From NCBI GenBank assembly GCA_002825515.1, contig PJET01000001.1, positions 1 to 64,000 on the forward strand: a stretch of 64,000 nt of DNA, given 5' to 3'. Within the stretch, counting starts at the first letter, position 1. Every line of letters starts with the position of its first letter. Positions 29,454 to 53,042 of this stretch are shown in pieces. The translations under genes and the position numbers were made by a program. The notes under the pieces were generated by a model. It had not been told where the DNA came from and searched no databases. It was given only the letters and a program-made list of their open reading frames with translations. The stretch is from Candidatus Thorarchaeota archaeon MP11T_1 (lineage in GTDB: Archaea; Asgardarchaeota; Thorarchaeia; Thorarchaeales; Thorarchaeaceae).

Positions 29454-30203
29454 ATGACCCAGTTCATTCTTGCTCTGTGTGGACTTCCAGCTTCAGGTAA
29501 GTCAGAACTCGCTGATTCGATAAAAAGGGTAATGGATTCTGGAATAGAAATAGTAAGGACAGACGACTGGAGAGATGAGTCGTACTATGATGACTGGAAG
29601 CCTGAGAGAGAGGCCCCAGTGCGCGAAGCTGCATTAGACCGTGTCAAACAATTGATCGCACAGGGTAAAAGCGTTATTCATGATGATACTAACTATTACA
29701 CAAGTATGCGGCATGAACTATTCAAAATCGCTGTTGTTAGTAGCTGTGCATTTGCAATCATTCATGTGACTACGCCGATAGAAGTAGCAATGAAATGGAA
29801 TGATGAAAGGCCTAATTCTAAGATTCCCGGTGAAGTAATAGAACGAATCAATGACCGATTCGATCTACCTGGAAGGCGTTATCTCTGGGATGACTCTTTG
29901 ATTGAAGTGGATATGTCTATAGATGAAACTGATGCAAAGGTAGCTGAGATTGTGGAGATTGTTCGAGACCTCGAGATTGCGGCGGACTCAGAGCCAAGAT
30001 CAGTAACAAATAATGAGTTTGAAAGGTTAGATGTGATATCTCGAAAAGTAGTTACGAAGTTTCTTGAGGACTATCCGAGTCTGCGTGGAAATAGAGATGT
30101 ATCGAAAGTTAGACGAGCCATTCTCAGTCGTGCTACTCGAAATAGGATATCCGAAAAAGTTGTACAGGAACTACTTCTTGAAGAGCTTAGCAAGCTGCTA
30201 TGA
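29454..30203 (+). CDS. pstK: L-seryl-tRNA(Sec) kinase (PSTK)
   Basis: A P-loop kinase of 249 residues, the family's usual size, that phosphorylates Ser-tRNA(Sec) to Sep-tRNA(Sec). The P-loop GLPASGKS is at residues 10-17, an acidic segment TDDWRDESYYDDW follows, and DDTNYYTSMR and the C-terminal basic helices match PSTK. The identity is greatly strengthened by context: the tRNA(Sec) gene starts two bases past its stop on the other strand, and SepSecS and SelB genes follow. The stop is TGA, so this organism still ends genes with UGA. Confidence 0.92.
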   Translation: MTQFILALCGLPASGKSELADSIKRVMDSGIEIVRTDDWRDESYYDDWKPEREAPVREAALDRVKQLIAQGKSVIHDDTNYYTSMRHELFKIAVVSSCAFAIIHVTTPIEVAMKWNDERPNSKIPGEVIERINDRFDLPGRRYLWDDSLIEVDMSIDETDAKVAEIVEIVRDLEIAADSEPRSVTNNEFERLDVISRKVVTKFLEDYPSLRGNRDVSKVRRAILSRATRNRISEKVVQELLLEELSKLL

Positions 30204-30205
30204 AA

Positions 30206-30296
30206 TGGCGGCCTCCCAAGAGAATCGAACTCTCAACGCTTGCACGTTCATGGGTTTGAAGCCCACGGAACCAGACCACCGGTCCTGTAGGAGGCC
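30206..30296 (-). tRNA. selC: tRNA-Sec, anticodon UCA, CCA encoded
   Basis: Read on the minus strand from 30296. The 5' GGCCTCCTA pairs with TGGGAGGCC to give a nine-pair acceptor stem (one G-T pair). The anticodon arm GTGGG/CCCAT holds the loop CTTCAAA with anticodon TCA. A long variable arm (AACG/CGTT) and a four-pair T stem with loop TTCGATT follow. Thus the acceptor-plus-T geometry is 9/4, as in archaeal and eukaryal tRNA(Sec). Discriminator G and a templated CCA end the gene at 30206. It lies 43 bases downstream of an unknown gene and tail to tail with pstK. Confidence 0.93.
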
Positions 30297-30339
30297 AAAT
30301 GTAAGTAAGAGTTGCAATGTTGAACAGTCAATTCTGAAT

Positions 30340-30993
30340 CTAAATGTAACGGCTGATTATGTCTTGGGTTTCTTTCTTCCACTCAATACTCTTTTTCGCA
30401 AGCTCTGAAGCAATGTTTCCGGGTAGTGTTTCTTCACGAGGGAGTGACTCTATTCTTGAAAGCCAACCAGATGTTGTCAACGTAAGAGATGGCACATTTG
30501 CCTCACCTTCAGTTGCTTTTATCATCATTTCTCGACCATGAGCGACTTGTATGTAGACATCGTTAAGAGGTGATTTATTGAGAATTTCCCGGACTGTTTT
30601 ATCCCAACAGGCTTTTGCCACAAGAGCCCGTTTCAACTTTCCCTTGTCAGTATCAGGCAATGAGGCATATTTCGCAAGAGCATCGTTCAATGAGCCTGCA
30701 AGACCATCTAGAAAGGCTCCTAACGCAACTTCATCAATACCTTCTGCTTCGACTCCAATAGTAGACTTAGCACCGTTGACAGTGATGTTTACCAAGGCTT
30801 TTTCATTAGCAATCCGAAGTGAAAATTTTGCCACACCATCAAAGACCTGACTCTCAGCTTCGCTATGTTCTTCCAAAATCACATTGGGTTTTGAAGCAAC
30901 AGAATACCAAGCGATTCTGAAGACTGTGGCTGAATCATCAGTAGTATAATTCAGCGTGCGTGAAACCTTCACTGTATCTTCCGATGTTTCCAA
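30340..30993 (-). CDS. Unknown protein encoded inside the selenocysteine cluster
   Basis: A protein of about 217 residues that I do not recognise. The N-terminal half is beta-rich (RTLNYTTDDSATVFRIAWY, FSLRIANEKALVNITVNG), the middle is a helical segment (GAFLDGLAGSLNDALAKY) and the C-terminal half contains KLKRALVAKACWDKTVREIL. No metal or nucleotide motif is seen. A TTG at 30993 has GGAGG eight bases upstream and is preferred to the TTG at 31011. It lies between sepSecS (12-30 base gap) and tRNA(Sec), probably on the same transcript, which suggests but does not prove a role in Sec synthesis or decoding. Confidence 0.7.
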   Translation of the reverse strand: METSEDTVKVSRTLNYTTDDSATVFRIAWYSVASKPNVILEEHSEAESQVFDGVAKFSLRIANEKALVNITVNGAKSTIGVEAEGIDEVALGAFLDGLAGSLNDALAKYASLPDTDKGKLKRALVAKACWDKTVREILNKSPLNDVYIQVAHGREMMIKATEGEANVPSLTLTTSGWLSRIESLPREETLPGNIASELAKKSIEWKKETQDIISRYI

Positions 30994-31022
30994 CAGTCTG
31001 ACCTCCCTCAAGGGTCTATAGT

Positions 31023-32342
31023 TTATTTACTGAGTTCCTTATAGAGTTTGGTCGTAGCTGTTTCCACATCATTTCTGGATGCTCCGATAGCCGCATTCAT
31101 CACCAAGTAGCTATGCGGATAGTTGTCGCATGACGAACCATACTCCCCCCTCTCAATAGCCCTTGGTCCTGTGACCCGCGCATTATACAACCTTGCTCCA
31201 ATCTCTTTGACATTAAACCCGTCCATTGTTATAGCACATGCGACAGGATTCCATAAAGAGAGAACTCTTTGCCCAAGCCTTACTGCGATTTCATTCATCT
31301 TATCATTGAGAAGTTCCAGATTTTCAGATTGTTTTCGCTGAAGATCTTTGTATGAATCCAATCCGAGCGCTAAAAGAGCAGCGAATGTTTGAACAATTGG
31401 TGCTGCAGATGCCCGTCCTGCATAGGTTTCAGTGATTTCCTTAATGAAATCTTTCGATGGAGACACTATAATTGATGCTCCTACCGGTGAGAGAAAGTTC
31501 TTGTCACTACTCTGAACAACTGCATCAACACGTCCAGCGTCAACAGCAGAACGAATCTCTCTCATAATCCTATCAGATTGAACCCCATAGGCATTATTGA
31601 TGACTAAAGGAACATCATTGTCTGAACAAGACCTTGCAATCTCTTTCACAGGATCAGATTCTCTTGGTGGAAAGAATGTGGTTGTGGCAAGCACAGCGGT
31701 TGCTTCAGCTCCTTTGATTAGGCGTTCTAGTATCCCAAGATCTACTCGAACAGCGTCCCCTTCAATAATTGTTGGAACATTAATCTCTTCAAGTCCTGCA
31801 AAAGCAATCGCACGATGAGGAGAGGTATGATCAATGCGAGGGAAAAGTACTCGCCTGACTTCGTGCTCCCTACGTAATGCGCTCAGAATGAGGGCAATAC
31901 TCATTCCAGTTGACAGAGGTGTCACGATGCCAGATTTCATATTGCTCAGACCAAGTTTCCGAATTGCGTCTAATGCTACACTATTGGTAACTTGCTGCAT
32001 CAAAGAAGAGCCAGGTGCCTTTGGTTGTGGTGCTGCAAGCTCACCGCTTCTTCCTACACCGTGATTGAAACCTGCAGATAACCTATTAATAAAAGGCGAA
32101 GCCACTCGAGCTTCACGTTCACCAACTCTTGCAGCTTCGGGGTCTTTGTCAGTATCGAGAGAGGAAAGAAGTTGTAGCATAATCTCAAGTTGAAAATCTG
32201 TGAGTGCCTTTTCAGGAAAGAGCCTTCTGTTAAGAACATCTCTTACGGGACCCAATAGGGAATCCACTGTTGTTCTACCACGTTTTAACATACTCTCTGG
32301 GATGTTCTTCTCAAGAATACGATCAATTTCATCCTTGTCCAA
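31023..32342 (-). CDS. spcS: O-phosphoseryl-tRNA(Sec) selenium transferase (SepSecS)
   Basis: A PLP-dependent enzyme of 439 residues that converts Sep-tRNA(Sec) to Sec-tRNA(Sec) with selenophosphate. The conserved N-terminal loop GVGRSGELAAPQPKAPGSSL near 95-114 and the PLP lysine K281 in VVQSSDKNFLSPVG are diagnostic. TTG start, overlapping the selB stop by 14 bases, so the two are translationally coupled. It is the archaeal/eukaryal route, not the bacterial SelA route. Confidence 0.95.
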   Translation of the reverse strand: MDKDEIDRILEKNIPESMLKRGRTTVDSLLGPVRDVLNRRLFPEKALTDFQLEIMLQLLSSLDTDKDPEAARVGEREARVASPFINRLSAGFNHGVGRSGELAAPQPKAPGSSLMQQVTNSVALDAIRKLGLSNMKSGIVTPLSTGMSIALILSALRREHEVRRVLFPRIDHTSPHRAIAFAGLEEINVPTIIEGDAVRVDLGILERLIKGAEATAVLATTTFFPPRESDPVKEIARSCSDNDVPLVINNAYGVQSDRIMREIRSAVDAGRVDAVVQSSDKNFLSPVGASIIVSPSKDFIKEITETYAGRASAAPIVQTFAALLALGLDSYKDLQRKQSENLELLNDKMNEIAVRLGQRVLSLWNPVACAITMDGFNVKEIGARLYNARVTGPRAIERGEYGSSCDNYPHSYLVMNAAIGASRNDVETATTKLYKELSK

Positions 32343-33726
32343 ACTTGTATTCCTCCTCTATCACCCGCTGATATGTTACTTGTTCTGACTCTTTCACTGA
32401 ACCTTTGAATTCTACTGAAACAACCCCTCGAGTACCAAAGGTCTGCTTAATAATACCAACCACACCGCTATTCGTGGTCACTTTGGAGCCAACTAGTCTT
32501 TCAGCAATCTCTTTTTTGGATGCGAGAGATTCCACAAGGACATCTTTCTCACGGATACGTTGGACTCTCCCAACCCTAGTACGAGGTCTGGAAAGAATCA
32601 TCTTATCTGGAATGTCTACGACTTCACCGGATCCGACTATTCTCATCTGTGTGGGCGGTAAATCAGTACGAAGTAGCAACACCTTGGTTCCTTTTGTGAT
32701 TGCTACAGGTTTTTGAAGAAGAAGTGCTGCATCGAACGCTTGGGTTTCTATCATATCCTGAACAACTTTTGCTTCATCGATAACTTTGAAGGGAATTATC
32801 TGTCCGGTAGCAACCGGCATTCCCGCTGAAACACTGACTGTCATCCTCTTCGTGATGCGACCTTTATACAATGGATTAACATCAAGTCTCGTTATCAGTC
32901 CTGATGCTTTGGTCATACTCGTGGGTGTACAGAGATAATCTCCTCTGGTGATTTCAGCATCACTGATCTCTGGAATATTAACACCCACTCGATCACCAGC
33001 ACTGGCACTTTCACGATTTTCACCAAAAGTCTGTATTGATCGAATTCTACCCTTTTTACCGAGTGGAGATAGCTCTACAACATCACCAAGCCTGATGGTT
33101 CCGCTTTGAATTGTTCCCGTTACTACTGTACCATGACCTTTAACTGGAAATGCGTGGTCGATAGGAATTGACAAGGGACCCTCTGGGTTTCTTGGGCGAG
33201 GGGTAAGAATTTGCAAAAGTGTGGACTTGAGTTCATCTATGCCATCTTCCTTTAATGCTGAAACTCGTACAATCTTGGCATCAGCAAAAGAGGTCTCTGC
33301 TAGAATCAATCGTATTTTTTCTTCCACATTCACGAGTTTGGATGATGGAACAAGATCAGTCTTGGTCACAGCAACGAGTATCTTTTCCACACCCATTGTC
33401 TGAAGAACAACAAGATGCTCCCCAGTTTGTACCTTTGGACCTTCGTCAGCAGCCACTACTAGAATAGCTGCATCAATTATATTCGCACCCGCAACGACAC
33501 TTCGAATCAAGTCAGCATGCCCAGGAGCGTCAACTAATGTCACCAAATAGTTGTCAAGTACAAACATTGTGAACCCAAGATCAATTGTAATACCACGTTT
33601 CTGTGCCTGAGGATGTCTGTCTAACCCAGCAGTGGAAACTTTCTCGCTGAGTACCTTTGCAAGAGCTGTTTTCCCATGATCAATATGACCCATGAGACCT
33701 ACGTGAACGGGGACAAGATTGTCCAT
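32329..33726 (-). CDS. selB: Selenocysteine-specific elongation factor SelB
   Basis: A GTPase of 465 residues that carries Sec-tRNA(Sec) to UGA. G1 GHIDHGKT is at 13-20, G3 DAPGH at 66-70 and the G4 position reads TKTD (121-124). Domains II and III follow (PVKGHGTVVTGTI marks domain II), then a short C-terminal domain IV. The bacterial winged-helix SECIS-binding domain is absent, as in archaeal SelB. It is the first gene of the minus-strand Sec operon; ATG with AAGGAT upstream. Confidence 0.93.
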   Translation of the reverse strand: MDNLVPVHVGLMGHIDHGKTALAKVLSEKVSTAGLDRHPQAQKRGITIDLGFTMFVLDNYLVTLVDAPGHADLIRSVVAGANIIDAAILVVAADEGPKVQTGEHLVVLQTMGVEKILVAVTKTDLVPSSKLVNVEEKIRLILAETSFADAKIVRVSALKEDGIDELKSTLLQILTPRPRNPEGPLSIPIDHAFPVKGHGTVVTGTIQSGTIRLGDVVELSPLGKKGRIRSIQTFGENRESASAGDRVGVNIPEISDAEITRGDYLCTPTSMTKASGLITRLDVNPLYKGRITKRMTVSVSAGMPVATGQIIPFKVIDEAKVVQDMIETQAFDAALLLQKPVAITKGTKVLLLRTDLPPTQMRIVGSGEVVDIPDKMILSRPRTRVGRVQRIREKDVLVESLASKKEIAERLVGSKVTTNSGVVGIIKQTFGTRGVVSVEFKGSVKESEQVTYQRVIEEEYKFGQG

Positions 33727-33829: not shown

Positions 33830-34255
33830 ATGGTATCACGATCTCTTGAGAAGATGATTCTTATTGCAATTGGACTATCAACGGTTGTAATTATAGGCGT
33901 GCCAGTTTTGATGTATGCAATTGATACTATTAACACAACCACACAGTTGCAGGAAGCTGTGATAATTGCAGAAAAGATTCACAATGCAACAAGAGATTTA
34001 GACACTGGCTTGCTCAACACTACTTCCATTACATTTTGGACCAATCAAGGAATCTCTGTAACTGCAAGTGGGAAGACGTTAACTGTGTTATTTGATAATG
34101 GAGTAGAATCATCAAACATTTGGTCAGCATCATATAGCCATGACATCATAATCGATGAACCACTATTATCGCATACTAGAAGAGTGCTCTATTCAGCAGA
34201 GTTCAGTTTAGTTGATGATGTCATCCACATCACATTTCTTGAAGTTCCAATTTAG
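33830..34255 (+). CDS. Small single-helix membrane-anchored protein
   Basis: A 141-residue protein with a short basic N terminus and one hydrophobic helix at about residues 9-31, followed by an outside domain with polar, threonine-rich beta strands. The plan resembles archaeal pilin-like or DUF7287-type proteins with unknown roles. No clear signal-peptidase site is visible. It diverges from selB and precedes the membrane ferredoxin gene, without an obvious functional link. Confidence 0.6.
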   Translation: MVSRSLEKMILIAIGLSTVVIIGVPVLMYAIDTINTTTQLQEAVIIAEKIHNATRDLDTGLLNTTSITFWTNQGISVTASGKTLTVLFDNGVESSNIWSASYSHDIIIDEPLLSHTRRVLYSAEFSLVDDVIHITFLEVPI

Positions 34256-34341: not shown

Positions 34342-35403
34342 ATGGCAGAGGATGTCGACGGAATCGACGAAACTGGTATAGATGATGAAGAGTCCGAACC
34401 AGAGGAGGAAATGCCAGAGGATGAACCAAAGACCGTTGAGATGAGAGAGCCAAGGAGGATAAGCCTCAAATCAAATCCTCTTGGACTGATACTGAACATT
34501 AGGATGTTACGTCGAATCTTTCAGATTCTTGCATTCATTGGGATCAATGGCTATATTCTTCTCGCATGGTTTCGTATGCCAAGTGTTCAAGCTTTTTGGC
34601 TATCTATCTGGCAAAACTTACCGACATTACCTGTTTTAGCTCCGTTAGAAGCGCCCTTTGGTGTTATAGCAGGTTCATTTGATACAATGATACGTGAGTT
34701 CTCAACAGGTATTTTTCCATTTTTCACAATAGGAGCTATGTTGATCATTGTTGTAATTTTTGGAAGAGCTGGCTGTGGATGGATATGCCCCATTGGCACT
34801 ATTCAAGATTTCATCACATTACCAAAGAGAACTAAAATACGCCCAACACATGGTACAGAAGCAGAACTCAGAAAGGTCAAAGCTTACGTCTTTGTAGTTG
34901 TAGCCTTCCTTGCTGTGTGGGTTGGCTTTTCTAGAATTACAGGAACTTCTGAAACTCTTGAGGCCGCTTTGGGTGCATTTGTTAATGATGCCTTCGCTCC
35001 TCTGAATCCAGCGTACATCATCTTCGTTCTTTTGCCGGATCAAGTATGGCCAACAGGTCTCGATACTCTGTGGTACTTTTCGCAATGGGGATGGCCACTC
35101 GTACAGATGATATTTGTAATCTTCGTGTTTCTCATTTCTTTCTGGATTCCACGATGGTTCTGTAGATGGCTGTGTCCTGCTGGCTGGTTCTATAGTGTTT
35201 TCTCACGGGATGCCTTGATTGGGATTGGACGTAATCCTGCACGCTGCACCCCTGACACATGCAATGTGTGTGAAGTTGTATGTCCAATGAATATACGAAT
35301 TAGAAAATTCCCATACCAACACATGTACAGCCCAGATTGTATAATGTGCTTGGACTGTAAGAGTCATTGTCCGAATAATGCCATTATCTTGAAGTTTTCA
35401 TAA
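34342..35403 (+). CDS. NapH/CcoG-like membrane [4Fe-4S] protein
   Basis: A 353-residue polytopic membrane protein with an acidic N-terminal tail of about 40 residues and about five helices. The cytoplasm-facing motifs CGWICPIG and CRWLCPAG are typical of NapH/RdxA/YccM proteins, and the C-terminal domain holds two ferredoxin groups (CTPDTCNVCEVVC and CIMCLDCKSHC). Such proteins pass electrons between quinol or ferredoxin pools and other redox enzymes. ATG 34342 lies about 20 bases after an AGGTGAGG run. The electron partner is not evident; a ModE-type regulator gene is convergent. Confidence 0.82.
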   Translation: MAEDVDGIDETGIDDEESEPEEEMPEDEPKTVEMREPRRISLKSNPLGLILNIRMLRRIFQILAFIGINGYILLAWFRMPSVQAFWLSIWQNLPTLPVLAPLEAPFGVIAGSFDTMIREFSTGIFPFFTIGAMLIIVVIFGRAGCGWICPIGTIQDFITLPKRTKIRPTHGTEAELRKVKAYVFVVVAFLAVWVGFSRITGTSETLEAALGAFVNDAFAPLNPAYIIFVLLPDQVWPTGLDTLWYFSQWGWPLVQMIFVIFVFLISFWIPRWFCRWLCPAGWFYSVFSRDALIGIGRNPARCTPDTCNVCEVVCPMNIRIRKFPYQHMYSPDCIMCLDCKSHCPNNAIILKFS

Positions 35404-36075: not shown

Positions 36076-37074
36076 TCATGTATTGGCATTCTTTGGTGTA
36101 AGAAAGCCACCCTTTGAAAAGTCAAAGAATACACGTTCATCTTCACCTAGTGTCAATCTAACTGCTTTAGAATCGTCAGCTCTTCCAAAGAGGGTGGTGG
36201 AAAGACCATGTGCTTGTGCAATCCGATTCACGCCCGGAAGATTACTTTCAGGCGTAGCTACAAGAAAACCTAGTGAGATAAACATCCGAATCCAGTCTTC
36301 CAGTGGAATGTCAAATGGTCGAGTTGCATCAAGGGAGTCTAAATTCAGTGTACCGCCGCATCCAGAATATTCCAACATCATACCAGCTGTTCCTATTACT
36401 CCTGCAACAGAAACATCCTTGGCCGCTGTCAACAACTTTTCACTAGCGAGTTCATTCATCACTGAGAGTCTGTGGACAATCTCCTCAGATGTCCGACCTG
36501 TTACCGAGTCCCAACCCAGTGTGTAGCTCTCACCTCTCTGCCCAACTTTATCAAACAACAGAACCAAAACATTGCCTGACTCAGCTCCGCCGGCAGTAAG
36601 AAGATTGGTTTTCATCACTTTACCTGTTGCAGAACCAACAACATATGTAGAGTTTGACCGAGGGTTTGTGTGCCCTCTAACAATGGGTACGTGAAAGATC
36701 TGGGACCCAGTAATTAAACCATCAAGTAACTCCTCTCCAATTTTTGGATCAGAATATGATAGCGCTACAGCAAAGGATGTTGGTGTTCCACCTGCTGCGT
36801 AGATATCCATCATATTAGCTAGAACAGCGTTGAATCCTGCGGCCCGAGGATAGTTTAGACAAAGATCTTCAACGATTCCATCGGTGGTCAAGAGTACATA
36901 CTCGTCAGACTCTGTTCCGATTGCGGCTGAGTCCTCACCAAGACTGTGTGGAGTGTTGCCATTGAAGGATTCTAAACGAAGTCTATCAAATATGGATGGA
37001 AGGACGAACTTCCGAGAGATTCCATCAAAGCTCAAGAGGAGCCTTACAATCTCATCGAGACGGTTCAAGTCCAA
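36076..37074 (-). CDS. PurM-like (AIR synthase-related) protein, methanogenesis marker 2-like
   Basis: A 332-residue ATP-binding protein of the PurM/ThiL/SelD/HypE superfamily. LGEDSAAIG resembles the Mg/ATP loop, LLTTDGIVEDL and MMDIYAAGGTPTSFAVALS are superfamily signatures. It resembles the AIR synthase-related methanogenesis marker 2 group. It lacks the N-terminal Cys/Sec loop of selenophosphate synthetase, so it is not an obvious SelD even though the Sec cluster is only 3 kb away. TTG start at 37074. Product and substrate unknown. Confidence 0.72.
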   Translation of the reverse strand: MDLNRLDEIVRLLLSFDGISRKFVLPSIFDRLRLESFNGNTPHSLGEDSAAIGTESDEYVLLTTDGIVEDLCLNYPRAAGFNAVLANMMDIYAAGGTPTSFAVALSYSDPKIGEELLDGLITGSQIFHVPIVRGHTNPRSNSTYVVGSATGKVMKTNLLTAGGAESGNVLVLLFDKVGQRGESYTLGWDSVTGRTSEEIVHRLSVMNELASEKLLTAAKDVSVAGVIGTAGMMLEYSGCGGTLNLDSLDATRPFDIPLEDWIRMFISLGFLVATPESNLPGVNRIAQAHGLSTTLFGRADDSKAVRLTLGEDERVFFDFSKGGFLTPKNANT

Positions 37075-37633: not shown

Positions 37634-38434
37634 TCACCTCACCTCAGCAATCCTGAGTAGCGATATCAAACGTTTTTGACCACCTTCTACAATCTTGATG
37701 CTTCTTTCGAGCCTTGTTTTTGATGAATCATAAGCGTCACGAGATATGTCTCCAATCTTGAACTTGGCCTCGACCCTACTGAGCTCCTTGTTAAGGGTCT
37801 TGATTGTCTTTTTAGTGCCTTTCACCCATTTCTTCGCAGTTTTTATCGCACTCTTAAGATTCTCATGGAGGTCCTTAATTGAGTGAAGTATCTCACGTCG
37901 CTGTTCCTTGTAGACACTCTTATCGACAGTACTTGAAATAGCTTCAAGCTTCTCAAGTCGTTCCTCATCCCGATCCAGAGCATCTAGCACCCGTTCTAAG
38001 ACCAACGGTGTTGAAACAGCAGCTAGTTCTCTTCGACGGTTTTTAGTCTTTTCAAATTCATCACGGAGCTCTTCAGCTCTAGCATTGAGCACATCTTTAT
38101 TCGCTTGTTGAAGTTGCAATGCTTGCCTGGTTGCTTTGGTTCGTTCTATAATGCTATCGAGCTCCATATCAACAACATCAAGCTCGGACCTTGACAAAAG
38201 TACAACAGCCGCCTCATTATCCATATCCTCAATTGAAATTTCAAAATGAGGTAGTTCTACCTTTTCAAGCTCTACTGGAGGCGTTATAGATTCAGGTTCC
38301 TCTTCAGAGTTGAACTCAAGTTCTGGAGGCCTGATGGATTCATTTACCTCTAGTGGTTTTCCACAAATCTTGCAGAAACGTCCTTCAGGGACTTCCAGAC
38401 CACAGGAAGGACATGTAACAAGCGTGTCTGACAT
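37634..38434 (-). CDS. Zinc-ribbon and coiled-coil protein
   Basis: A protein of about 266 residues. The N terminus is a zinc ribbon (CPSCGLEVPEGRFCKICGKPL), then an acidic proline-rich linker (about 35-70), then about 190 residues of heptad-rich charged helix with two likely coiled-coil arms separated near residue 165. Such a plan suggests a scaffold or a filament-forming adaptor. It is not recognised; I considered an ESCRT-like or CdvA-like role but see no diagnostic motif. Start ATG 38434; a TTG at 38446 is possible. Confidence 0.65.
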   Translation of the reverse strand: MSDTLVTCPSCGLEVPEGRFCKICGKPLEVNESIRPPELEFNSEEEPESITPPVELEKVELPHFEISIEDMDNEAAVVLLSRSELDVVDMELDSIIERTKATRQALQLQQANKDVLNARAEELRDEFEKTKNRRRELAAVSTPLVLERVLDALDRDEERLEKLEAISSTVDKSVYKEQRREILHSIKDLHENLKSAIKTAKKWVKGTKKTIKTLNKELSRVEAKFKIGDISRDAYDSSKTRLERSIKIVEGGQKRLISLLRIAEVR

Positions 38435-38499
38435 GGCTTTACACAATCCATGATAAAGTTCCTAGCCGGATTCATATCCGTATCTATTATCGATCTTAT

Positions 38500-38900: not shown

Positions 38901-39464
38901 CTATGGTCTATGCCAGACAAAGGAATAGTAAGCGACCTCAGCATTTTCTTTGACGGTAGCAATGATGAATTTTTTCCTCACACTTGTTGCTAATCGTCCA
39001 GCCCGAACAATATCAAGCGGAACTACACCTTTCCTCTGAGGAATTACATGAACAAGAAAGGGTGCATGGTCTTTCCCCGGACCAAATTCATAGACAGCGA
39101 AATCAGTGCCAAACTTCAACCCAGGTCGTACAATATACCCATGTTCACGTAGCTGCGAATATACAATGAAACGGTCTTTGAACTCATCCGACCATTCGGA
39201 TCCGAGTTTTAGAAGATCCTCGACACTCAGAACTTTGTCTTCATCATTTCTTCGAACATTCAGTCTTTTTTGTTGAGTGAGGTATACGCACTCGATTAAT
39301 GATAACTCGAGAGGTTTGTCGAAAACTGAAGACTTGGGTTTTCTTATCCCCACGGGTTGACCAAAATAACCTTCTTCATAAAGTTGCATACCATAATCAG
39401 GGTCCCAGACGATTCCTCTGTCGCCTACAAGTCTGGCTTCTGCAACAGTGGATGTCTTTTCCAA
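38901..39464 (-). CDS. endA: tRNA-splicing endonuclease
   Basis: Cuts introns from pre-tRNAs at bulge-helix-bulge sites. The catalytic half is clear: RFIVYSQLREHGYIV, then KFGTDFAVYEFG with the Tyr, GKDHAPFLVHV with the His, and GRLATSVRKKFIIA with the Lys. The length is 187 residues, matching the alpha4 or alpha2beta2 subunit sizes of archaea. The frame starts at TTG 39464. An N-terminal domain of about 80 residues precedes the catalytic part. Confidence 0.9.
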   Translation of the reverse strand: MEKTSTVAEARLVGDRGIVWDPDYGMQLYEEGYFGQPVGIRKPKSSVFDKPLELSLIECVYLTQQKRLNVRRNDEDKVLSVEDLLKLGSEWSDEFKDRFIVYSQLREHGYIVRPGLKFGTDFAVYEFGPGKDHAPFLVHVIPQRKGVVPLDIVRAGRLATSVRKKFIIATVKENAEVAYYSFVWHRP

Positions 39465-39482
39465 TTCATGGCACCGACTATT

Positions 39483-40145
39483 TCAGCTGTTGAGCGTAAG
39501 TGAGAGAGTTCGAATCACGAGTGCTGCATCCTCACCAAAGTTAGCTATATCCTCTAACATGTTTATGAAATCTCGAAACCGGAGCATTACAGCAAGGGGG
39601 ATTTCTACGGGATACAATAAGGATAGAATCTTTCTCTGTACGATGTCTATTTGTTTCTCAAGTTTGCAAATCTCGTCAGCACGTTTCATGGACTCTTCCA
39701 TATTGATAGAGAGAAAGCGTACTGCTTCTCTTTGTGCAGATAGCTGGGAGCTCATCAGCTTTCCCAGTTCTGCTATATTCTCTTTTAATTCACCATCTGG
39801 TGTCCAATGCTCAACAACTGCTGCAAGGTGATAGCATGCAATTTCTGCACCATCCACTGATTTGTCATTGTAAAATACGAGCTTCAGGAGATCTTCACGT
39901 TGCATCAACGAACTTGCTTTAGCTAGTTCATTGAGTATAGTGCGCTTCAGAACATCACCCTTTTCTTCAAGATTTGTGATCTTCTCAAGTTCTTCAGTCG
40001 CAATGGACTTCTTGCCGTCTAACCAATCAGTGATTGCATTGACTACTATTTTATGGGCTGATACTGCTACACGAAAATGCTCGTCTAACATCTGTGTTAT
40101 GTTTCCTAGCTCAGAGCTGATGAATCGTCCATTATCGAGAACCAT
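39483..40145 (-). CDS. PhoU/DUF47-family protein
   Basis: A 220-residue all-helical protein of the DUF47/PhoU-like group. The repeat-like segment with EEKGDVLKRTILNEL and the second ADEICKLEKQIDIVQRKIL near 165 are typical E/D-rich metal-coordinating helices. Such proteins are usually next to phosphate transporters (PitA); none is found here, the neighbour being uppP, which releases phosphate. The ATG at 40145 was chosen; the open frame upstream is atypical and overlaps the uppP start on the other strand. Confidence 0.75.
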   Translation of the reverse strand: MVLDNGRFISSELGNITQMLDEHFRVAVSAHKIVVNAITDWLDGKKSIATEELEKITNLEEKGDVLKRTILNELAKASSLMQREDLLKLVFYNDKSVDGAEIACYHLAAVVEHWTPDGELKENIAELGKLMSSQLSAQREAVRFLSINMEESMKRADEICKLEKQIDIVQRKILSLLYPVEIPLAVMLRFRDFINMLEDIANFGEDAALVIRTLSLTLNS

Positions 40146-40227
40146 AATGCGCACCTCTATTGTGCTGAGTCGGTTGGAGTAGCTTTTTAATTCTTCTGGA
40201 CCTTGACCAAAACAGGAGAAAAGAATA

Positions 40228-41028
40228 GTGGAGCTCTGGCAGCTTATCGTTGCTCTCATCCAGGGACTTGTAGAATGGCTTCCAATAAGCAGTGAGGGAC
40301 AGGTCGTCCTGTTCTTGTACAACTTTTCATCTGTTTCCACGGAAGAGATCTTCTCTCTTGTAGTCTGGCTTCATCTTGGAACTGCTCTTGCGGTGGTTGT
40401 TAGGTATCCAAGAGTCATATTTGAAATACTAAGCTTCAAAGACCAAAAACTGCTGAGGCTCCTTCTTCTGGCTACGATAGGCACTGCTGTTACTGCATTG
40501 CCTCTTTACTTCTTTCTGAAAAGCAGCTTGACACCCATGCATGGTGAACTCTTGAACGTAGTAGTAGGAGTATTGTTGTTGATTACAGCGATTGTCTTGT
40601 ATCTACCAACTAGACAGGGTGAGGAAAAGAATACTGAAATTGAGCGAGCAGTTGAGAATACAGAAGCGGCCGCAACTGGACTTGTGCAGGGATTGGCTGT
40701 ACTACCTGGCTTGAGTAGGTCAGGAGTTACTATATCCGCACTTCTGATGCAGAGAGTAGACAAAGAAACTGCAATGAAGTTCAGTTTCTTGATGAGTGTA
40801 CCTGCAGTTTTAGCCATCCTTGTTTTGGAGATTATGACTGGAAGCACGATTCCTGCAGGCATAGGTACAGTTGATTTCATAGTGATTGAAGGTCTAGTTT
40901 TTGTGACAGGTCTCATATCAATGGAATTTCTGTTGAAGCTTGCAAGAAGAATCAGTTTCTGGAAGTTGTGTCTTGTCCTTGCAGTTGTTGCAATCTTCTT
41001 TGGTATCCCAGCATTGACTCAATTATAG
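40228..41028 (+). CDS. uppP: Undecaprenyl-diphosphatase-like protein (UppP/BacA)
   Basis: A polytopic membrane phosphatase of 266 residues that recycles polyprenyl diphosphate. The two catalytic segments are visible: ALIQGLVEWLPISSEGQ near residues 8-24 and GLAVLPGLSRSGVTIS near 152-167. In archaea it presumably acts on the lipid carrier used for glycan or S-layer glycosylation. GTG start at 40228. The gene is divergent from the PhoU-like gene. Confidence 0.88.
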   Translation: MELWQLIVALIQGLVEWLPISSEGQVVLFLYNFSSVSTEEIFSLVVWLHLGTALAVVVRYPRVIFEILSFKDQKLLRLLLLATIGTAVTALPLYFFLKSSLTPMHGELLNVVVGVLLLITAIVLYLPTRQGEEKNTEIERAVENTEAAATGLVQGLAVLPGLSRSGVTISALLMQRVDKETAMKFSFLMSVPAVLAILVLEIMTGSTIPAGIGTVDFIVIEGLVFVTGLISMEFLLKLARRISFWKLCLVLAVVAIFFGIPALTQL

Positions 41029-43004: not shown

Positions 43005-43148
43005 CTAAACGCCTTTGACACGTTTCACGACTGGAGGGCGTATCTTGTATAGAATTCTGCCTCCACAGTATGGACATTTCACTCCGGGGAGTGTTTTAAG
43101 ACCCTCTGGTGTCACTTCTCTGTGGCATTTATGACAAACGTAAACCAT
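43005..43148 (-). CDS. rpoP: DNA-directed RNA polymerase subunit P (Rpo12)
   Basis: A 47-residue zinc protein: CHKC near the start and CPYCGG at 25-30, ending with ILYKIRPPVVKRVKGV, which is the diagnostic tail of archaeal RpoP/eukaryal Rpb12. It is a small assembly subunit of RNA polymerase. It follows the radical SAM gene on the same strand after 57 bases. Confidence 0.92.
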   Translation of the reverse strand: MVYVCHKCHREVTPEGLKTLPGVKCPYCGGRILYKIRPPVVKRVKGV

Positions 43149-43205
43149 TCCAGTCACCAATGGTTTTCGCGGAGTAAGACAATATGAAGCTTTTCTTAGG
43201 GCAAA

Positions 43206-44804
43206 TCATGAATCTGATGTTCTACTTACAACTTCTCCTTCAACAAGACCACTGCTGAGTACTTGAGTGACTCTGACTAAAAGAAGAGAGCCAGCTGAGA
43301 AACCACCTGAAACTGTCATAAGTGGACCCTCCTCGAGGGGATAGACCATTGTGAACCCATGATGCGTCCTTGATGGCTCTGCAGCAATTCCTCGTATCAA
43401 CTCACCAAGGTATTGGTCTTTCTTCTTGCGATTGATATTCTCAGCCTCTTTTCGAAGTATCAAGCCAAATTCGTCAGTTAGTGATGAGTCTGGATAGTTT
43501 GCGAATGCAGAACCAGGCAACGACCTGAAGCCGTACAATATTATTCTCTCTGCACCAGCCTCACTCACAGTACGCATTAGCTTGACTGATTGTTCTACTG
43601 TTTCAGCTGTTTCACCAGGCAGTCCATAAATCAAGTAGACAAAGGGTGTCATGCCATGAGCTCTAGCTACCTTTACAGCACGAATGACATCTTCTGGAGT
43701 TCCACATTTGCCAATCTGACGCATATGATACTCAGATCCCGTTTCTAATCCAATATTCGGAGAACTGGAAATCATAGATTTCTTGAGAGTCTGAGCGACC
43801 ACATCTGTAAACAAGCATGCTTTCATATTTTCAACACCGATGTGGACAGACCCTTCAGAAACCTGAGGTAGTGAGTTGAGTTTGACAAGTAGGTCTTCAA
43901 TTGCTACAAGATTTGCGGGCGGTTTACATGGATCTGTTAAAGGCTCAGGTCCTCTCATGTAATCTAAGAAATCCGGGGCTTCTAGGATGATTCGATGAAC
44001 GCCTAGGTCTAATAGCTCTGTTACCTCTTGAATTATGGAATTCGAAGTTCGACTTCGTGGAGGCCCCCAAGTGCCCGGAACACTACAGAACCCACATCCA
44101 GGTGGAATGTCCTCAGGACAATCCATTCGTGCAGATGCATCTGCTGAATCGCAATTATCACATTCTGTGCATTCCTTCCCGTTGGAAAGAGGGTATCTTG
44201 TCCGCTTGAAATTTGAACAGCCACGAAGTATCTCAACATATACCTTACAGGCTTGGTAAGCAGGGTAGTCAATGATCCTTGCGGTTGAGGGAGAGAACCT
44301 CACTGATAGTTCATGTGATGAAAGCAGGTTTCTTGGTTTATTGATTCGCGGCTTATTAGCTTCAAGAAAGGCAATACCATCAATGTCTACTAACGGGATT
44401 TCTTCGTCTAGAAAATTATTCTCTATCAATTCGTTGAGAGTTGCCTCGCCCTCACCCATCACAAGAACATCAGGCCTAATCTGTTTGAGGATGCTATCAG
44501 GGTCTGAAGCAATTGGACCACCTAGAAGTATTCTTCCCCTTAACCGGTAATGTTTCCAAGTCTTGACAATTTTCTTGACAGCTATTTGGTCCATTGTCAT
44601 AGCACTTATGGCTATATGATCAAACCGTTTTAGAACTCCTTTCTTTGAGAGTACATCCTCTGCTCGACGGATTGCACATTTAGTTCCATGACTCTCAAAC
44701 ACACCCGCAACTGTACGAGGACCACAACCAACCGAGTCTCTCGAACTTGTGCGTTCTCCTGAGCCTGCGCTTAGGGCATCAATAATTAGAACTTGACCGG
44801 TCAT
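43206..44804 (-). CDS. B12-binding-domain radical SAM protein with a cysteine-rich insert
   Basis: A 532-residue radical SAM enzyme with an N-terminal cobalamin-like Rossmann region (RGRILLGGPIASDPDSIL, DVLVMGEGEATLNEL). The radical SAM cysteines are split: EILRGC is followed by 40 residues, then CGFCSVPGTW. The insert itself has CTECDNC and a fourth Cys, so an extra metal site is likely. The SAM-binding and barrel parts (GLETGSEYHMRQIGKCGTPEDV, FVYLIYGLPGET) are normal. Reaction unknown. GTG or ATG start near 44804, with 143 bases to the divergent aIF1 gene. Confidence 0.85.
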   Translation of the reverse strand: MTGQVLIIDALSAGSGERTSSRDSVGCGPRTVAGVFESHGTKCAIRRAEDVLSKKGVLKRFDHIAISAMTMDQIAVKKIVKTWKHYRLRGRILLGGPIASDPDSILKQIRPDVLVMGEGEATLNELIENNFLDEEIPLVDIDGIAFLEANKPRINKPRNLLSSHELSVRFSPSTARIIDYPAYQACKVYVEILRGCSNFKRTRYPLSNGKECTECDNCDSADASARMDCPEDIPPGCGFCSVPGTWGPPRSRTSNSIIQEVTELLDLGVHRIILEAPDFLDYMRGPEPLTDPCKPPANLVAIEDLLVKLNSLPQVSEGSVHIGVENMKACLFTDVVAQTLKKSMISSSPNIGLETGSEYHMRQIGKCGTPEDVIRAVKVARAHGMTPFVYLIYGLPGETAETVEQSVKLMRTVSEAGAERIILYGFRSLPGSAFANYPDSSLTDEFGLILRKEAENINRKKKDQYLGELIRGIAAEPSRTHHGFTMVYPLEEGPLMTVSGGFSAGSLLLVRVTQVLSSGLVEGEVVSRTSDS

Positions 44805-49060: not shown

Positions 49061-51625
49061 ATGACCACAAGTGATTCAAAAGGAAGTAGTGCAGGACCTT
49101 CAGACATTGAAGTTGTATCAATAGATCCTGAGCTACGTATAGGTGTGTTTCCTTGTAAATGTGGTAAGAATATTGGTGCCGTAGTAGATATTGAAGCTGT
49201 AGCTGAATATGCAAAAACACTCCCCGGTGTCGTACATGTGCAGGTGAATGTGTACACTTGTGCAGATCCGGGTCAGAGAGAGATCCAAGAAGCAATTGCG
49301 GAACATGGTCTCAACCGCATAGTTGTTGCATCTTGTAGCCCGACTATGCATGAAGACACATTCAGGAAGACAGTCAAAGCTGCAGGCCTTAATCCATATT
49401 TGTGTATCATGGCCAATATCAGAGAACACGTATCCTGGGTGCACCAACATGATCATGAGGCTGCAACTCAGAAGGCAAAGGACCTTGTCGCAATGGCAGT
49501 TGCCAAAGCAGCAACCCTTCAAGCACAGCCCGAATTAGATGTTCCAGTGACTCAAGCCGCTTTGGTAGTAGGAGCTGGTGTGGCGGGAATGCAAGCAGCC
49601 CTTGATCTTGCAGAAGCAGGTTTCAAGGTTCACTTAGTAGAAAAGCAGTCTACAATCGGAGGAATCATGGCCATTCTTGATAAGGTGTTCCCCCAGAATG
49701 ACTGTTCTATCTGTATCCTTGGACCAAAAATGGTTGACGTAGCCAAACATCCAAACATCAACATGATGACTATGGCAGAGGTCGAGTCAATATCAGGGTA
49801 TGTTGGTAACTTTGAAGTTAGGGTGAAGCAACGAGCAAGGTATGTGGATATCGAGGCTTGTACTGCTTGTGGTGATTGTGTTGAAGTCTGTCCAGTGGAT
49901 GTCCCAAGTAGAACAGACCAAAACCTGACCTGGCAAAAAGCAATTCAAATACCATTCCCTCAAGCTGTTCCGTCATGCTATTTCATAGACCCTGAAGCAT
50001 GTCTGGGTATGGACTTAATCCGGTGCGGAAAATGTATCGACCGTTGCGAGCAAGAAGCAATTGTGGCTTCTGACAAGGACAAGTATATTGATCTCGATGT
50101 GGGGGTCATTATTCTAGCTACCGGGTTCAAACCCGCCGACCCTAGCAAGGTTCCTCGCCTTGGTTGGGGCAGATATCCAAATGTAATCACGTCATTGGAG
50201 TTCGAACGACTCATCAACGCAGCAGGTCCTACAGAGGGGTCTCTAGTTAGACCATCAGACCTTTCGAAACCAAAATCAGTGGCAATTGCTCAATGCGTCG
50301 GTTCTCGGGATATCAGCACTCGGTCAGGATGTTCAAACTTCTGTTGTGCTGAATCAGTAAAGTGTGCGTTACTAATCAAAGAACACTATCCAGATACTGA
50401 AGTCTCTATCTTCTACCAAGACTTGAGGATGCATGGTAAATATTTTGAGGACCAATATCAAAAGGCAAGAGAAGAGGGCGTCAAATTCATTCGAGGACGA
50501 ATCGGTGAAATCCAGCAGTATCCAAAGATCAAGAGCCTTCGGGTGAGTGTAGAGGATACAACTCACAACAAGCTTCTCCTAGAAGATTTTGACATGGTTA
50601 TTTTGTCAATGGGCGCAGAGGGCACAGCTGGTAGCTTCCCACTTCCAATCTCTTGTACGCACGATTCATTCTATATCGAGTCACATCCAAAGCTAAGACC
50701 TGTAGATACAAGCTCCGCAGGAGTGTTCATCTGTGGAGGTGCAGAGAGTCCAAAGGACATTAGGGACTCTGTTATTCAAGCAAGTGCTGCTGCAGGTAGA
50801 GCATCTATTATTCTTCAGAAGGGAAGATATCCAATTGAAGCGCTTAGTGCAAAGATAATGCAAGATCTTTGTAATAGATGCGGCACCTGTGTGAAACGCT
50901 GTCCCTATGGAGCTATCTCGCAGGATGGTACAGGTAAATTCACAGTAATGGGAGCACTTTGTCAGGCTTGTGGGACATGTGCAGGTGATTGTCCGCAGGA
51001 TGCAATCTATATGCCAAACTTCACAAGTGAGCAGATTGAGTCACAGATTGATATCGCACTTCAGGAAGACCCAGGCAACAAGATAGTCGCATTTGCATGT
51101 GCGTTTTGTTCATATAGAGGATCGGACCTGGCTGGCGTGTCCAGAATGCAGTATCCGACTAATGCAAGAGTCATTCGTGCCATGTGTTCAGGAAGATACT
51201 CTACAAAGTTTGCTCAAAAGGCATTTGAACAAGGAGCTGGAGCTGTCCTCTATTCAGGGTGTCATCTTCCTTCAGACTGTCACTTCCAAACAGGAAATCA
51301 TTGGATGGCTAAACGAGAGCCTAGAATTAGAGGATGGATGAAAAGGAATGGTATTGAGGATGAGAGATTCAGAGTGGAGTGGGTATCTGCTGGAGAAGGT
51401 AAGAAATGGCAGACTATAATGACTGAGTTATCAGAAGTTGTGAAAACTCCAAGAAAAGATATAGTCAAGCCAAAGAAAGCAGTAGACAGCAAGTCCAGGA
51501 AACCATCCAAAACAAAGAGAGGTACTAAGCCAAAGTCTGGAACCAAGACCAAGCAAAAACCAAAGAAGAAAGTTAGTAGTTCCAAATCGGAAGCTCGCAA
51601 GAAAAAGAGTACAAAGAAGAAGTGA
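49061..51625 (+). CDS. hdrA: HdrA-type flavin iron-sulfur subunit fused to an MvhD-like domain, with a lysine-rich tail
   Basis: An 854-residue electron-bifurcating heterodisulfide reductase subunit A. The N-terminal FAD fold has GAGVAG at 171-176; NDCSICILGPKM has Cys where I recall methanococcal HdrA carrying selenocysteine. Ferredoxin groups include CTACGDCVEVC, CNRCGTCVKRC and CQACGTCAGDC. From about residue 673 the MvhD/FlpD-like part begins (CAFCSYRGSDLAG, CHLPSDCHFQTGN). The last 65 residues are Lys/Ser-rich. It is followed by hdrC and hdrB, so HdrABC would couple electrons from a partner to ferredoxin and a disulfide-like acceptor. Confidence 0.92.
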   Translation: MTTSDSKGSSAGPSDIEVVSIDPELRIGVFPCKCGKNIGAVVDIEAVAEYAKTLPGVVHVQVNVYTCADPGQREIQEAIAEHGLNRIVVASCSPTMHEDTFRKTVKAAGLNPYLCIMANIREHVSWVHQHDHEAATQKAKDLVAMAVAKAATLQAQPELDVPVTQAALVVGAGVAGMQAALDLAEAGFKVHLVEKQSTIGGIMAILDKVFPQNDCSICILGPKMVDVAKHPNINMMTMAEVESISGYVGNFEVRVKQRARYVDIEACTACGDCVEVCPVDVPSRTDQNLTWQKAIQIPFPQAVPSCYFIDPEACLGMDLIRCGKCIDRCEQEAIVASDKDKYIDLDVGVIILATGFKPADPSKVPRLGWGRYPNVITSLEFERLINAAGPTEGSLVRPSDLSKPKSVAIAQCVGSRDISTRSGCSNFCCAESVKCALLIKEHYPDTEVSIFYQDLRMHGKYFEDQYQKAREEGVKFIRGRIGEIQQYPKIKSLRVSVEDTTHNKLLLEDFDMVILSMGAEGTAGSFPLPISCTHDSFYIESHPKLRPVDTSSAGVFICGGAESPKDIRDSVIQASAAAGRASIILQKGRYPIEALSAKIMQDLCNRCGTCVKRCPYGAISQDGTGKFTVMGALCQACGTCAGDCPQDAIYMPNFTSEQIESQIDIALQEDPGNKIVAFACAFCSYRGSDLAGVSRMQYPTNARVIRAMCSGRYSTKFAQKAFEQGAGAVLYSGCHLPSDCHFQTGNHWMAKREPRIRGWMKRNGIEDERFRVEWVSAGEGKKWQTIMTELSEVVKTPRKDIVKPKKAVDSKSRKPSKTKRGTKPKSGTKTKQKPKKKVSSSKSEARKKKSTKKK

Positions 51626-51630
51626 TTGGT

Positions 51631-52128
51631 ATGGCAGACGATTCTCAGGAGCAACTACTCAAAGATCTTAAAGAACGGGCAAGACCTTGTTTTCAATGTG
51701 GTATATGTACATCCTCTTGTCCGGTTTTTAGGGTGGCACCTGAGCTGAACCCAAGAGTTTCAGTTGATTCTATCATAACAAAAGGAGAGGTTCCGAGAGA
51801 AGGAAATGAGTGGCTGTGTGCATATTGCCTAATGTGTGACCAGAGATGTCCGATGGGAGTGTCACTTGCAGAAATCTTGATGGAAATAAAAAATATCTCT
51901 GCAAGGGAGGGAAAAGCCCCACCAGATGTCATAGAGTCTGCTGCGTCTTTAATGCAAGATGGTTGTCTATCTCCTATCTCAAACAGGTCTGAGAAGATAC
52001 GATCCGAATTGGGATTACCAGATTTACCTAGAGCCAACCTAGCTGATGTCGTGAAGTTGTTCAAGGCTACAGGAGCTGAAGAGGTCCTTGAAATCAACAG
52101 AGCAGAACAAGAGGAGGCGTCTGAATGA
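51631..52128 (+). CDS. hdrC: HdrC-type iron-sulfur subunit
   Basis: A 165-residue protein with two [4Fe-4S] sites, CFQCGICTSSC and CAYCLMCDQRC, joined by the usual HdrC helix. It would carry electrons from HdrA to HdrB. ATG 51631 is preferred; a GTG nine bases upstream overlaps the hdrA stop. The stop overlaps the hdrB start by four bases. Confidence 0.9.
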   Translation: MADDSQEQLLKDLKERARPCFQCGICTSSCPVFRVAPELNPRVSVDSIITKGEVPREGNEWLCAYCLMCDQRCPMGVSLAEILMEIKNISAREGKAPPDVIESAASLMQDGCLSPISNRSEKIRSELGLPDLPRANLADVVKLFKATGAEEVLEINRAEQEEASE

Positions 52129-53042
52129 AATACGCATTCTTCCCAGGTTGCACAATGGCTTATCGGCTCCAGTTTACAGAGAAGTCAATCAGAATGGTGG
52201 CACCGAAATTTGATATCGATCTAGTTGACCTCCCATTCACATGTTGCCCTGAACCTAATGCAGTGAGAGCATTGTCTGATGACACATGGCTAACCTTTGC
52301 CGCTAGAAACATTGCTCTTGCAGAGGCAGAAGGACTCAACATCCTAACTGCATGTGCAGGATGTCATGAGTCACTATCCTTAGCAAAACATGAACTAGAT
52401 GAAAAACCAGAGAGAAAGAACAAGGTAAATCAGATTTTAAAGGACTTAGGTCTTGAATACAAAGGGAACTCAACAGTAACACATATGCATCAGTTACTAT
52501 TCGATGAGATTGGCATTGAAACCATTTCTTCAAAGGTGACTCGTCCAATTCCAATCAAGGTTGTGACTCACTCGGGTTGCCATCTTCTTAGACCAGAGAG
52601 GATTCTGCATGTTGATAATGCAGAGGTTCCTGTGAAACTTGATCTTCTATGTGAGGCTCTTGGAATGGAACCATTGGAATATATGGACAAGACCATGTGT
52701 TGTGGCGCAGGAGTTCGAAAGACGAATTCAGTCACTTCATACGCGGTATTACGTGAAAAGATGATAAGCATGGAAATGGTGGAGCCCGATGCAATCGTTG
52801 TCTTTTGTCCAACATGTTTCATAACCTTTGAGTCTGGCCAGAAGGTTGCGAATAGAATATTCAGTACTGACTTCAAGTTCCCAGTCTTTTATTATACAGA
52901 ACTACTAGCGATTGCAATGGACCTTCCAGAAACGGACTTGTTGCTTGCAGAGCATAGGGTCAAGCTTGAACTTCCTAGGAGAGCTGAAACAAAGAAGGAA
53001 GAAGAGATGGATATGGGTGATTCGATTGCATCGAGTTCATAG
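52125..53042 (+). CDS. hdrB: HdrB-type CCG-domain subunit
   Basis: A 305-residue protein with two CCG modules: GCTMAYRL, TCCPEP and CAGCHES form the first, SGCHLLRPE, MCCGAGVRK and CPTCF the second. In HdrB these bind non-cubane [4Fe-4S] clusters where disulfides are reduced. The acceptor is unclear, as no methanogenesis genes are present; a related thiol or a different electron acceptor is possible. The C-terminal tail (KKEEEMDMGDSIASSS) is extra. Confidence 0.9.
   Translation: MKYAFFPGCTMAYRLQFTEKSIRMVAPKFDIDLVDLPFTCCPEPNAVRALSDDTWLTFAARNIALAEAEGLNILTACAGCHESLSLAKHELDEKPERKNKVNQILKDLGLEYKGNSTVTHMHQLLFDEIGIETISSKVTRPIPIKVVTHSGCHLLRPERILHVDNAEVPVKLDLLCEALGMEPLEYMDKTMCCGAGVRKTNSVTSYAVLREKMISMEMVEPDAIVVFCPTCFITFESGQKVANRIFSTDFKFPVFYYTELLAIAMDLPETDLLLAEHRVKLELPRRAETKKEEEMDMGDSIASSS

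Follow-up and report, generated by a model that had tools for sequence, protein, structure and literature searches.

A selenocysteine locus and the gene within it

The genome of Candidatus Thorarchaeota archaeon MP11T_1 carries, at positions 29454–33726 of the 64,000-nt stretch of DNA analyzed here (PJET01000001.1, positions 1–64,000; hereafter the window), four genes for the synthesis and delivery of selenocysteine (Sec) and, in their midst, a gene whose product belongs to the NCBIfam family NF045535 (Sel_Asgard, "putative selenocysteine system protein"). The question that this locus raises is whether the fifth gene works for Sec, as its family name implies, or merely lives beside genes that do. 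We posit that the locus is an ordinary archaeal/eukaryal-type Sec locus and that NF045535 is probably an Asgard adaptor-like protein with a Sec-independent core role and not a dedicated Sec factor. Being part of a selenocysteine system does not hold across the whole family, a result that bears on the family and not on the neighbourhood in the window, which comprises:

29454..30203, plus strand: pstK, encoding a homologue of Ser-tRNA(Sec) kinase and running towards tRNA-Sec (PF08433 KTI12, 115 bits; TIGR03574, 132 bits)
30206..30296, minus strand: tRNA-Sec, anticodon UCA, with encoded CCA (ARAGORN, tca; RF01852, 58.8 bits on 30210–30296)
30340..31011, minus strand: NF045535 gene (212 bits, curated cut-off 132)
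31023..32342, minus strand: sepSecS, Sep-tRNA(Sec):Sec-tRNA(Sec) synthase (TIGR03531, 455 bits, cut-off 225; PF05889, 389 bits)
32329..33726, minus strand: selB/EFSec, Sec-specific elongation factor (TIGR00475, 294 bits, cut-off 242; PF21440; PF21131)

Profile matches, ARAGORN, and Rfam bore out the coordinates, strands, and identities given in a preliminary description of this DNA, and family matches supported its reading of an archaeal/eukaryal-type locus encoding the tRNA-dependent steps and SelB; the gene that it called unknown is present as described, although NCBIfam already has a name for it. Functionally, SerRS (encoded outside the locus) would charge tRNA-Sec with serine, PSTK would phosphorylate the resulting Ser-tRNA-Sec, SepSecS would exchange the phosphate for selenium from selenophosphate (made by SelD, encoded elsewhere), and SelB would bring the Sec-tRNA to those UGA codons that a Sec insertion sequence (SECIS) marks. 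Read in this way, from protein families and not from experiment, the predicted gene set lacks none of the tRNA-dependent steps that follow SerRS.

NF045535 in apparently Sec-less genomes

The survey covered 227 genomes of the phylum of SMTZ1-45 (genome G001), mostly metagenome-assembled genomes (MAGs), and 14 control genomes (G and L numbers denote the genomes and loci compared). NF045535 was matched at E ≤ 0.001 in 144 of the 227 and in none of the controls; nine genomes with only weak matches (best E no better than 6e-10), presumed as a group to be longer relatives, were left out, which leaves 135. SepSecS was strong (PF05889 best E < 1e-50) in 130/227, and PF05889 also matches in four control genomes. 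Cross-tabulated, uncorrected for kinship and from lists typed by hand, 117 genomes have both proteins, 18 NF045535 only, 13 SepSecS only, and 79 neither.

We judged 13 of the 18 NF045535-only genomes to be Sec-less (G074–G081, G182, G013, G014, G202, and G212), and excluded the other five from this count: G228, discussed below, G157, G158, and G167 for contig edges, and G082 for its short contig. In these 13 genomes the window SepSecS query gave no match, the window SelB query found factor paralogues only (at most 126 bits, versus 549–570 bits for SelB where present in Thorarchaeota and 314 bits for the diverged SelB of G158), and no SelD exceeded its cut-off. PSTK had no match in 12 of them; the match in G182 (26.6 bits, 25% identity, internal stop) is not credible, and neither it nor a 75-bit PF05889 match in that genome was counted as a Sec gene, since the window SepSecS finds nothing there. 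No tRNA-Sec in the 13 scored above 47 bits (best 45.3, G080), which is a weak test, as only 71 of the 227 genomes pass it and the cut-off also drops G009 and G184, although both have SepSecS, SelB, and a UGA-containing SelD.

The Sec-less copies are family members by the database's own measure: 11 of the 13 genomes exceed the NF045535 cut-off (138–160 bits in G074–G081, 143 in G182, 225 in G202, 215 in G212), and G013 and G014 score 82 bits, below it. The family name therefore over-calls, and will flag Sec-less genomes as Sec users. Conversely, NF045535 had no match in G009 (Borrarchaeum yapensis) or in G184, which has a similar locus with the same neighbours, despite the Sec genes just listed. 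Five of the SepSecS-only genomes (G010, G106, G138, G144, and G155) look like contig-edge cases; G102 was left uninspected. Not all Asgard Sec users have NF045535, and the protein does not depend on Sec; still, its linkage to sepSecS is tight wherever the two occur together: among 81 loci (the window plus the best 80 of 97 that encode a relative in a SepSecS alignment scan of GTDB species genomes), 75 have the NF045535 gene as the next gene downstream of sepSecS, with the strand shared.

Remnants of Sec genes beside an intact NF045535

Two thorarchaeal genomes appear to preserve traces of the loss itself. At locus L123 (G212), a 222-aa NF045535 gene is intact and the gene for TFB, orf141, a NapH-like gene, ModE, and an AIR-synthase gene are in place. 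At the site of selB and sepSecS only the SepSecS C-terminus is left, split over two frames (tblastn 3.5e-7), and pstK has disappeared. The opposite flank holds a tRNA-Sec remnant, 89% identical to the window tRNA-Sec, compared with 98–99% in the closest kin (L001–L004) and 86–96% in more distant Thorarchaeota-type (Thor-type) loci with a called tRNA-Sec; it scores 37.6 bits against RF01852, has eight mispair marks versus two in the window, and was not called by ARAGORN. Locus L124 (G202) similarly holds an intact NF045535 and a 32-residue shred of SepSecS (5e-5), with tRNA-Sec and pstK not in the locus. Evolutionarily, L123 and L124 are separate on the protein tree, so the two losses look independent.

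The L123 protein shows no raised rate: its distances to six outgroups do not exceed those of the Sec-bearing L002 protein nor, for five of the six, those of the window protein. Its pairwise ratios of nonsynonymous to synonymous substitution (dN/dS) to the five nearest relatives are 0.07–0.13, a rough measure with synonymous sites near saturation. A third candidate, G228, was dropped: its sepSecS, selB, and pstK are in fragments, yet a UGA-containing selD remains, so that decay and misassembly are indistinguishable there. At its locus (L125), the selB N-terminus abuts the sepSecS C-terminus, pstK is cut to 81 aa, NF045535 is intact, and no tRNA-Sec was called.

An old neighbourhood shared by Sec-bearing and Sec-less loci

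The genes that flank selB in the window recur around NF045535 in genomes that have no selB or sepSecS. In the window these are:

33830..34255, plus strand: orf141, 141-aa gene without a family, adjoining NF045535 in both thorarchaeal Sec-less loci
34342..35403, plus strand: NapH/Fer4_5-like protein (X376), direct flank of NF045535 in Sec-less loci
37634..38446, minus strand: ZnR, 270-aa member of the neighbourhood's zinc-ribbon family (no Pfam match for the window copy; the L108 member has a zinc ribbon)
38901..39464, minus strand: EndA, tRNA-splicing endonuclease, conserved neighbour (PF01974, PF02778)
39483..40340, minus strand: DUF47/PhoU_div, conserved neighbour (PF01865)
40228..41028, plus strand: UppP/BacA, conserved neighbour (PF02673)

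L106, L107, L108, L109, L111, and L113 have a HerA-type gene on one side of NF045535 and, on the other, the row X376-ZnR-SPFH-EndA-DUF47-UppP (HerA and SPFH named by eye in the Sec-less loci); the same row, SPFH excepted, flanks the window selB, and in the Sec-less loci selB and sepSecS are absent. L110 and L112 end at contig edges and agree as far as they are visible. In L102 and L103, an SPFH-type gene lies 1.3–1.4 kb away. The clade label comes from P0268, a protein 80% identical to that of L108 and named Hodarchaeota at NCBI. On the NF045535 tree this Hodarchaeota-type clade forms one group with a Shimodaira–Hasegawa-like support (SH-aLRT) of 98; the branching below it is uncertain, with long branches, and the Sec-context sequences are not one group. 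Sec may have been lost in this clade or gained elsewhere.

Domains and relatives of NF045535

The gene encodes 217–223 aa; the protein-database version has 217 aa, which would put its start at 30993. A structure model of the 217-aa protein consists of a beta-alpha-beta4-alpha part and a helical part only, without an IG-like domain, and, together with fold matches, suggests a TBP/adaptin-appendage-like domain followed by a Vps28-C-like helical bundle; these domain names, and the adaptor role with them, come from models and distant relatives. Five residues (F31, D137, Y153, R160, and E161) are invariant in 71/71 Sec-context and 15/15 Sec-less sequences (the latter including 13 distinct ones), and K212 is present in 70/71 and 15/15, respectively.

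Sequence searches gave the window protein no Pfam family; 30 homologues drew 12 weak families (best E 0.018), none of them L7Ae, and searches of the PDB with both profiles returned nothing or nothing useful. A HEPN/RnlA relation was rejected, with Foldseek probabilities of 0.18–0.38 and no such protein among the 50 matches listed for the helical domain alone. Longer Asgard relatives match the Pfam families PCI, UFL1 (E3_UFM1_ligase), DDRGK and, in part, VPS28. In L096, L097, L098, and L104 these are proteins of 720–796 aa with PCI, UFL1-like, and DDRGK matches, whose C-terminus is an NF045535-like module that partly matches VPS28. The five long relatives aligned do not share the D/Y/RE signature. 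No family of the endosomal sorting complex required for transport (ESCRT) was found among the window proteins scanned, a subset of the window's genes. At L101 (G085:C1:349170–349682), the family match of a divergent homologue near selB crosses one in-frame TGA.

Among known proteins, the likeness is to the Asgard proteins that combine Vps28-C with an adaptin appendage of IG and TBP parts (Makarova et al. 2024, PMC10936438): in the available text, those proteins place a TBP-like domain before a Vps28-C-like bundle, the order predicted for NF045535, which differs in having neither the IG-like nor the winged-helix part. The domain model of NF045535 and the Pfam matches of its longer relatives are new here, and the tie to Asgard adaptors that carry Vps28-C and UFL1-like regions opens a different and testable direction.

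Is NF045535 a Sec factor?

Asgard archaea have eukaryote-like SECIS elements and no SBP2, and Huang et al. (2024, PMC11227280) name, in the available text, a hypothetical protein beside the Sec genes as a candidate for an extra factor; this protein, MBD3157761.1, is found in Asgard archaea only and often lies near secS, efSec, and pstk. It is probably the NF045535 protein, so the existence of such a gene near Asgard Sec genes was already known. A literature search found no mention of the NF045535 accession or family name, and found MBD3157761.1 in PMC11227280 only; a 2026 review that cites this work (PMC13188914) does not mention the hypothetical protein in its available portion. The Asgard Sec system as described by Huang et al. 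and by Sun et al. (2021, PMC9723677) is, like that predicted for the window, one of SepSecS, PSTK, SelB/EFSec, and tRNA-Sec, with a Sec-containing SelD that corresponds to the UGA-containing selD seen here in relatives. In their accessible parts, neither paper describes the fold of the protein, Sec-less genomes retaining it, or remnants of Sec loss. New here are the 13 Asgard genomes that keep NF045535 without credible SepSecS, PSTK, SelB, or SelD and with no tRNA-Sec above its cut-off, two of them thorarchaeal with sepSecS remnants; the eight Sec-less loci (L106–L113) in which the same neighbours remain without selB and sepSecS; and the two Borrarchaeal-type genomes with a UGA-containing selD that lack NF045535.

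In the explanation that we favour, NF045535, with its predicted appendage-like domain, helical bundle, and invariant F/D/Y/R-E signature, would be an old neighbour of the Sec genes that is kept when these are lost, and it may additionally help to make Sec in genomes that have both. The nearest rival grants it no part in Sec at all and attributes its place beside sepSecS to the old neighbourhood. The flanking genes common to Sec-bearing and Sec-less loci, the Sec-less genomes that keep it, and the two Borrarchaeal-type Sec users without it all agree with such a lodger, and we regard it as a possible reading, though the less likely one: its co-occurrence with SepSecS is strong, and Lokiarchaeota retain the sepSecS-NF045535 adjacency though the rest of the row has moved.

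A dedicated Sec factor (a stand-in for SBP2, or a helper of tRNA-Sec or SepSecS), with the Sec-less copies as relics or changed in function, would account for the 117 of 227 genomes with both proteins, for the 75 of 81 adjacent gene pairs, and for the missing SBP2 in archaea with eukaryote-like SECIS elements (PMC11227280, in the text available). Were NF045535 a SECIS factor, it would fill the same pathway gap as eukaryotic SBP2. A dedicated role is nonetheless unlikely, because the protein is intact in apparently Sec-less genomes, twice beside decaying Sec genes. It also evolves at a normal rate after Sec loss in G212, shares its invariant residues with the Sec-less clade, and is absent from the Sec users G009 and G184. 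SBP2 has an L7Ae-type RNA-binding domain; Pfam finds no RNA-binding family in NF045535 and no sequence relation between the two, and the distribution of NF045535 is not strictly tied to Sec. A two-role version, in which an appendage-TBP/Vps28-C adaptor related to UFL1/DDRGK-like proteins came to serve in place of SBP2 in Asgard archaea, would link SepSecS/SelB to SECIS-bearing or membrane-bound ribosomes, and would revert to its older role on Sec loss, strikes us as slightly less likely still.

Incomplete or misassembled MAGs are an improbable source of the Sec-less cases: most genomes are indeed MAGs, and contig edges account for the mismatches in G157, G158, and G167, but several independent markers are jointly absent in the 13 genomes, and the loci run without breaks, keeping their conserved flanks and decayed remnants. 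A foreign Sec cluster, brought into the contig by a contaminating join or a recent transfer, had no point in its favour and is very hard to credit given the even G+C (42–44.5% in 2-kb steps over 24–42 kb), the absence of any N in the window, and the recurrence of the same order and flanks on other thorarchaeal contigs; the contig is thorarchaeal.

Signs of Sec use

Sec use in Thorarchaeia is already published, and Sec in the Asgard ancestor has been argued (PMC11227280, as far as its available text goes). The selD for the window's pathway would be encoded elsewhere than in the locus, as judged from relatives only. In G001, the nearest relative, selD has one in-frame TGA, likewise in thorarchaeal G002 and G003, and 7 of 19 relatives searched have a selD above the family cut-off with an in-frame TGA (G001, G002, G003, G009, G184, G008, and G084; G008 has two copies, and that of G084 has a TAA besides). 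In 12 further genomes, a selD above the cut-off with one TGA occurs in nine; in G083 it is split in two, and in G202 and G212 no selD exceeds the cut-off. G008 (L053, CP070805.1, titled chromosome) has SepSecS, tRNA-Sec, and its two UGA-containing selD genes; no SelB there exceeds the TIGR00475 cut-off or is credible with the window SelB query. The AIR-synthase gene at 36076–37074 of the window was rejected as selD (TIGR00476, 37 bits, cut-off 125).

Within the window, 61 in-frame UGA candidates were read by eye and none was convincing, with a filter (at least 60 open codons before the UGA and at least 25 after) that would miss a Sec near the gene start, as in selD. Rfam gave no SECIS match in the window at gathering thresholds and none in four selD loci at E ≤ 10, and may not model Asgard SECIS. 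The frame 43005–44804, a radical-SAM/B12 gene ending in TGA with a same-frame follower, imitates a selenoprotein in read-through scans and was rejected as one: the part after the TGA looks like a separate gene, a zinc ribbon that we take to be an Rpo12/RpoP-like gene. HdrA is a selenoprotein family in other Asgards (PMC11227280, in part available); in contrast, the window's genes for an HdrA-FlpD fusion, HdrC, and HdrB (49061–53042) are open, with no internal UGA.

Layout of the locus and gene order in relatives

The genes of the locus are tightly packed. The pstK stop (TGA, 30201–30203) is followed by AA and then by the ARAGORN end of the tRNA with its encoded CCA, so the two-base gap reported earlier stands for that tRNA end; by the Rfam model, which excludes CCA, the gap is six bases. 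selB and sepSecS overlap by 14 nt, and gaps of 11 nt and 43 nt separate sepSecS from NF045535 and NF045535 from the tRNA. The overlapping and abutting genes are thus compatible with one transcript, and selB, sepSecS, NF045535, and tRNA-Sec may be co-transcribed. The pstK product matches TIGR03574 over nearly the full model length, below the model cut-off of 290.5, and its place beside tRNA-Sec is conserved among relatives. The tRNA-Sec exceeds the Rfam gathering score of 47, and the selB product also matches aSelB_III and eEFSec_4th, that is, archaeal domain III and a fourth domain.

Sec genes are usually scattered in methanogens, and the clustering in the window had at first been called notable. 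This does not hold for the group. The best named SepSecS relatives of the window are Thorarchaeota, with SMTZ1-45 (L001) nearest among the fetched contigs at 85% SepSecS identity. Thor-type loci number 31 (L001–L030 and the window), 23 of them evaluable in having at least 3.5 kb on the right, and the order SelB>SepSecS>NF045535>tRNA-Sec><PSTK is found in 22 of the 23 (21 by rule, L030 by eye), so such a cluster is normal for Thorarchaeota. L030 (WJMJ01000022.1) misses the rule solely through a pstK frame overlapping the tRNA; it has a Lokiarchaeota label with thorarchaeal gene order and sequence, and may be mislabelled. The exception is L021 (CP070761.1, genome G003), a chromosome-level MAG with selB and sepSecS, in which tRNA-Sec and pstK are not nearby and undetermined residues lie inside NF045535. 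In Lokiarchaeota the tRNA, where ARAGORN calls one, is mostly just upstream of sepSecS, and selB, where seen, is on the opposite strand ~3–6 kb off.

The six of 81 loci without an adjacent NF045535 are L026 (where the contig ends), L033 (labelled Sigynarchaeota), L037 and L041 (Bathyarchaeota), and L043 and L057 (Borrarchaea). The two Bathyarchaeota loci encode a single-frame PSTK-SelB fusion upstream of sepSecS (L037:6252–8552 and L041:6513–8882), which is no novelty, having been published already (PMC9499178, in its available text). Both also carry what by eye resembles a divergent selD, in a frame that begins immediately behind a TGA codon.

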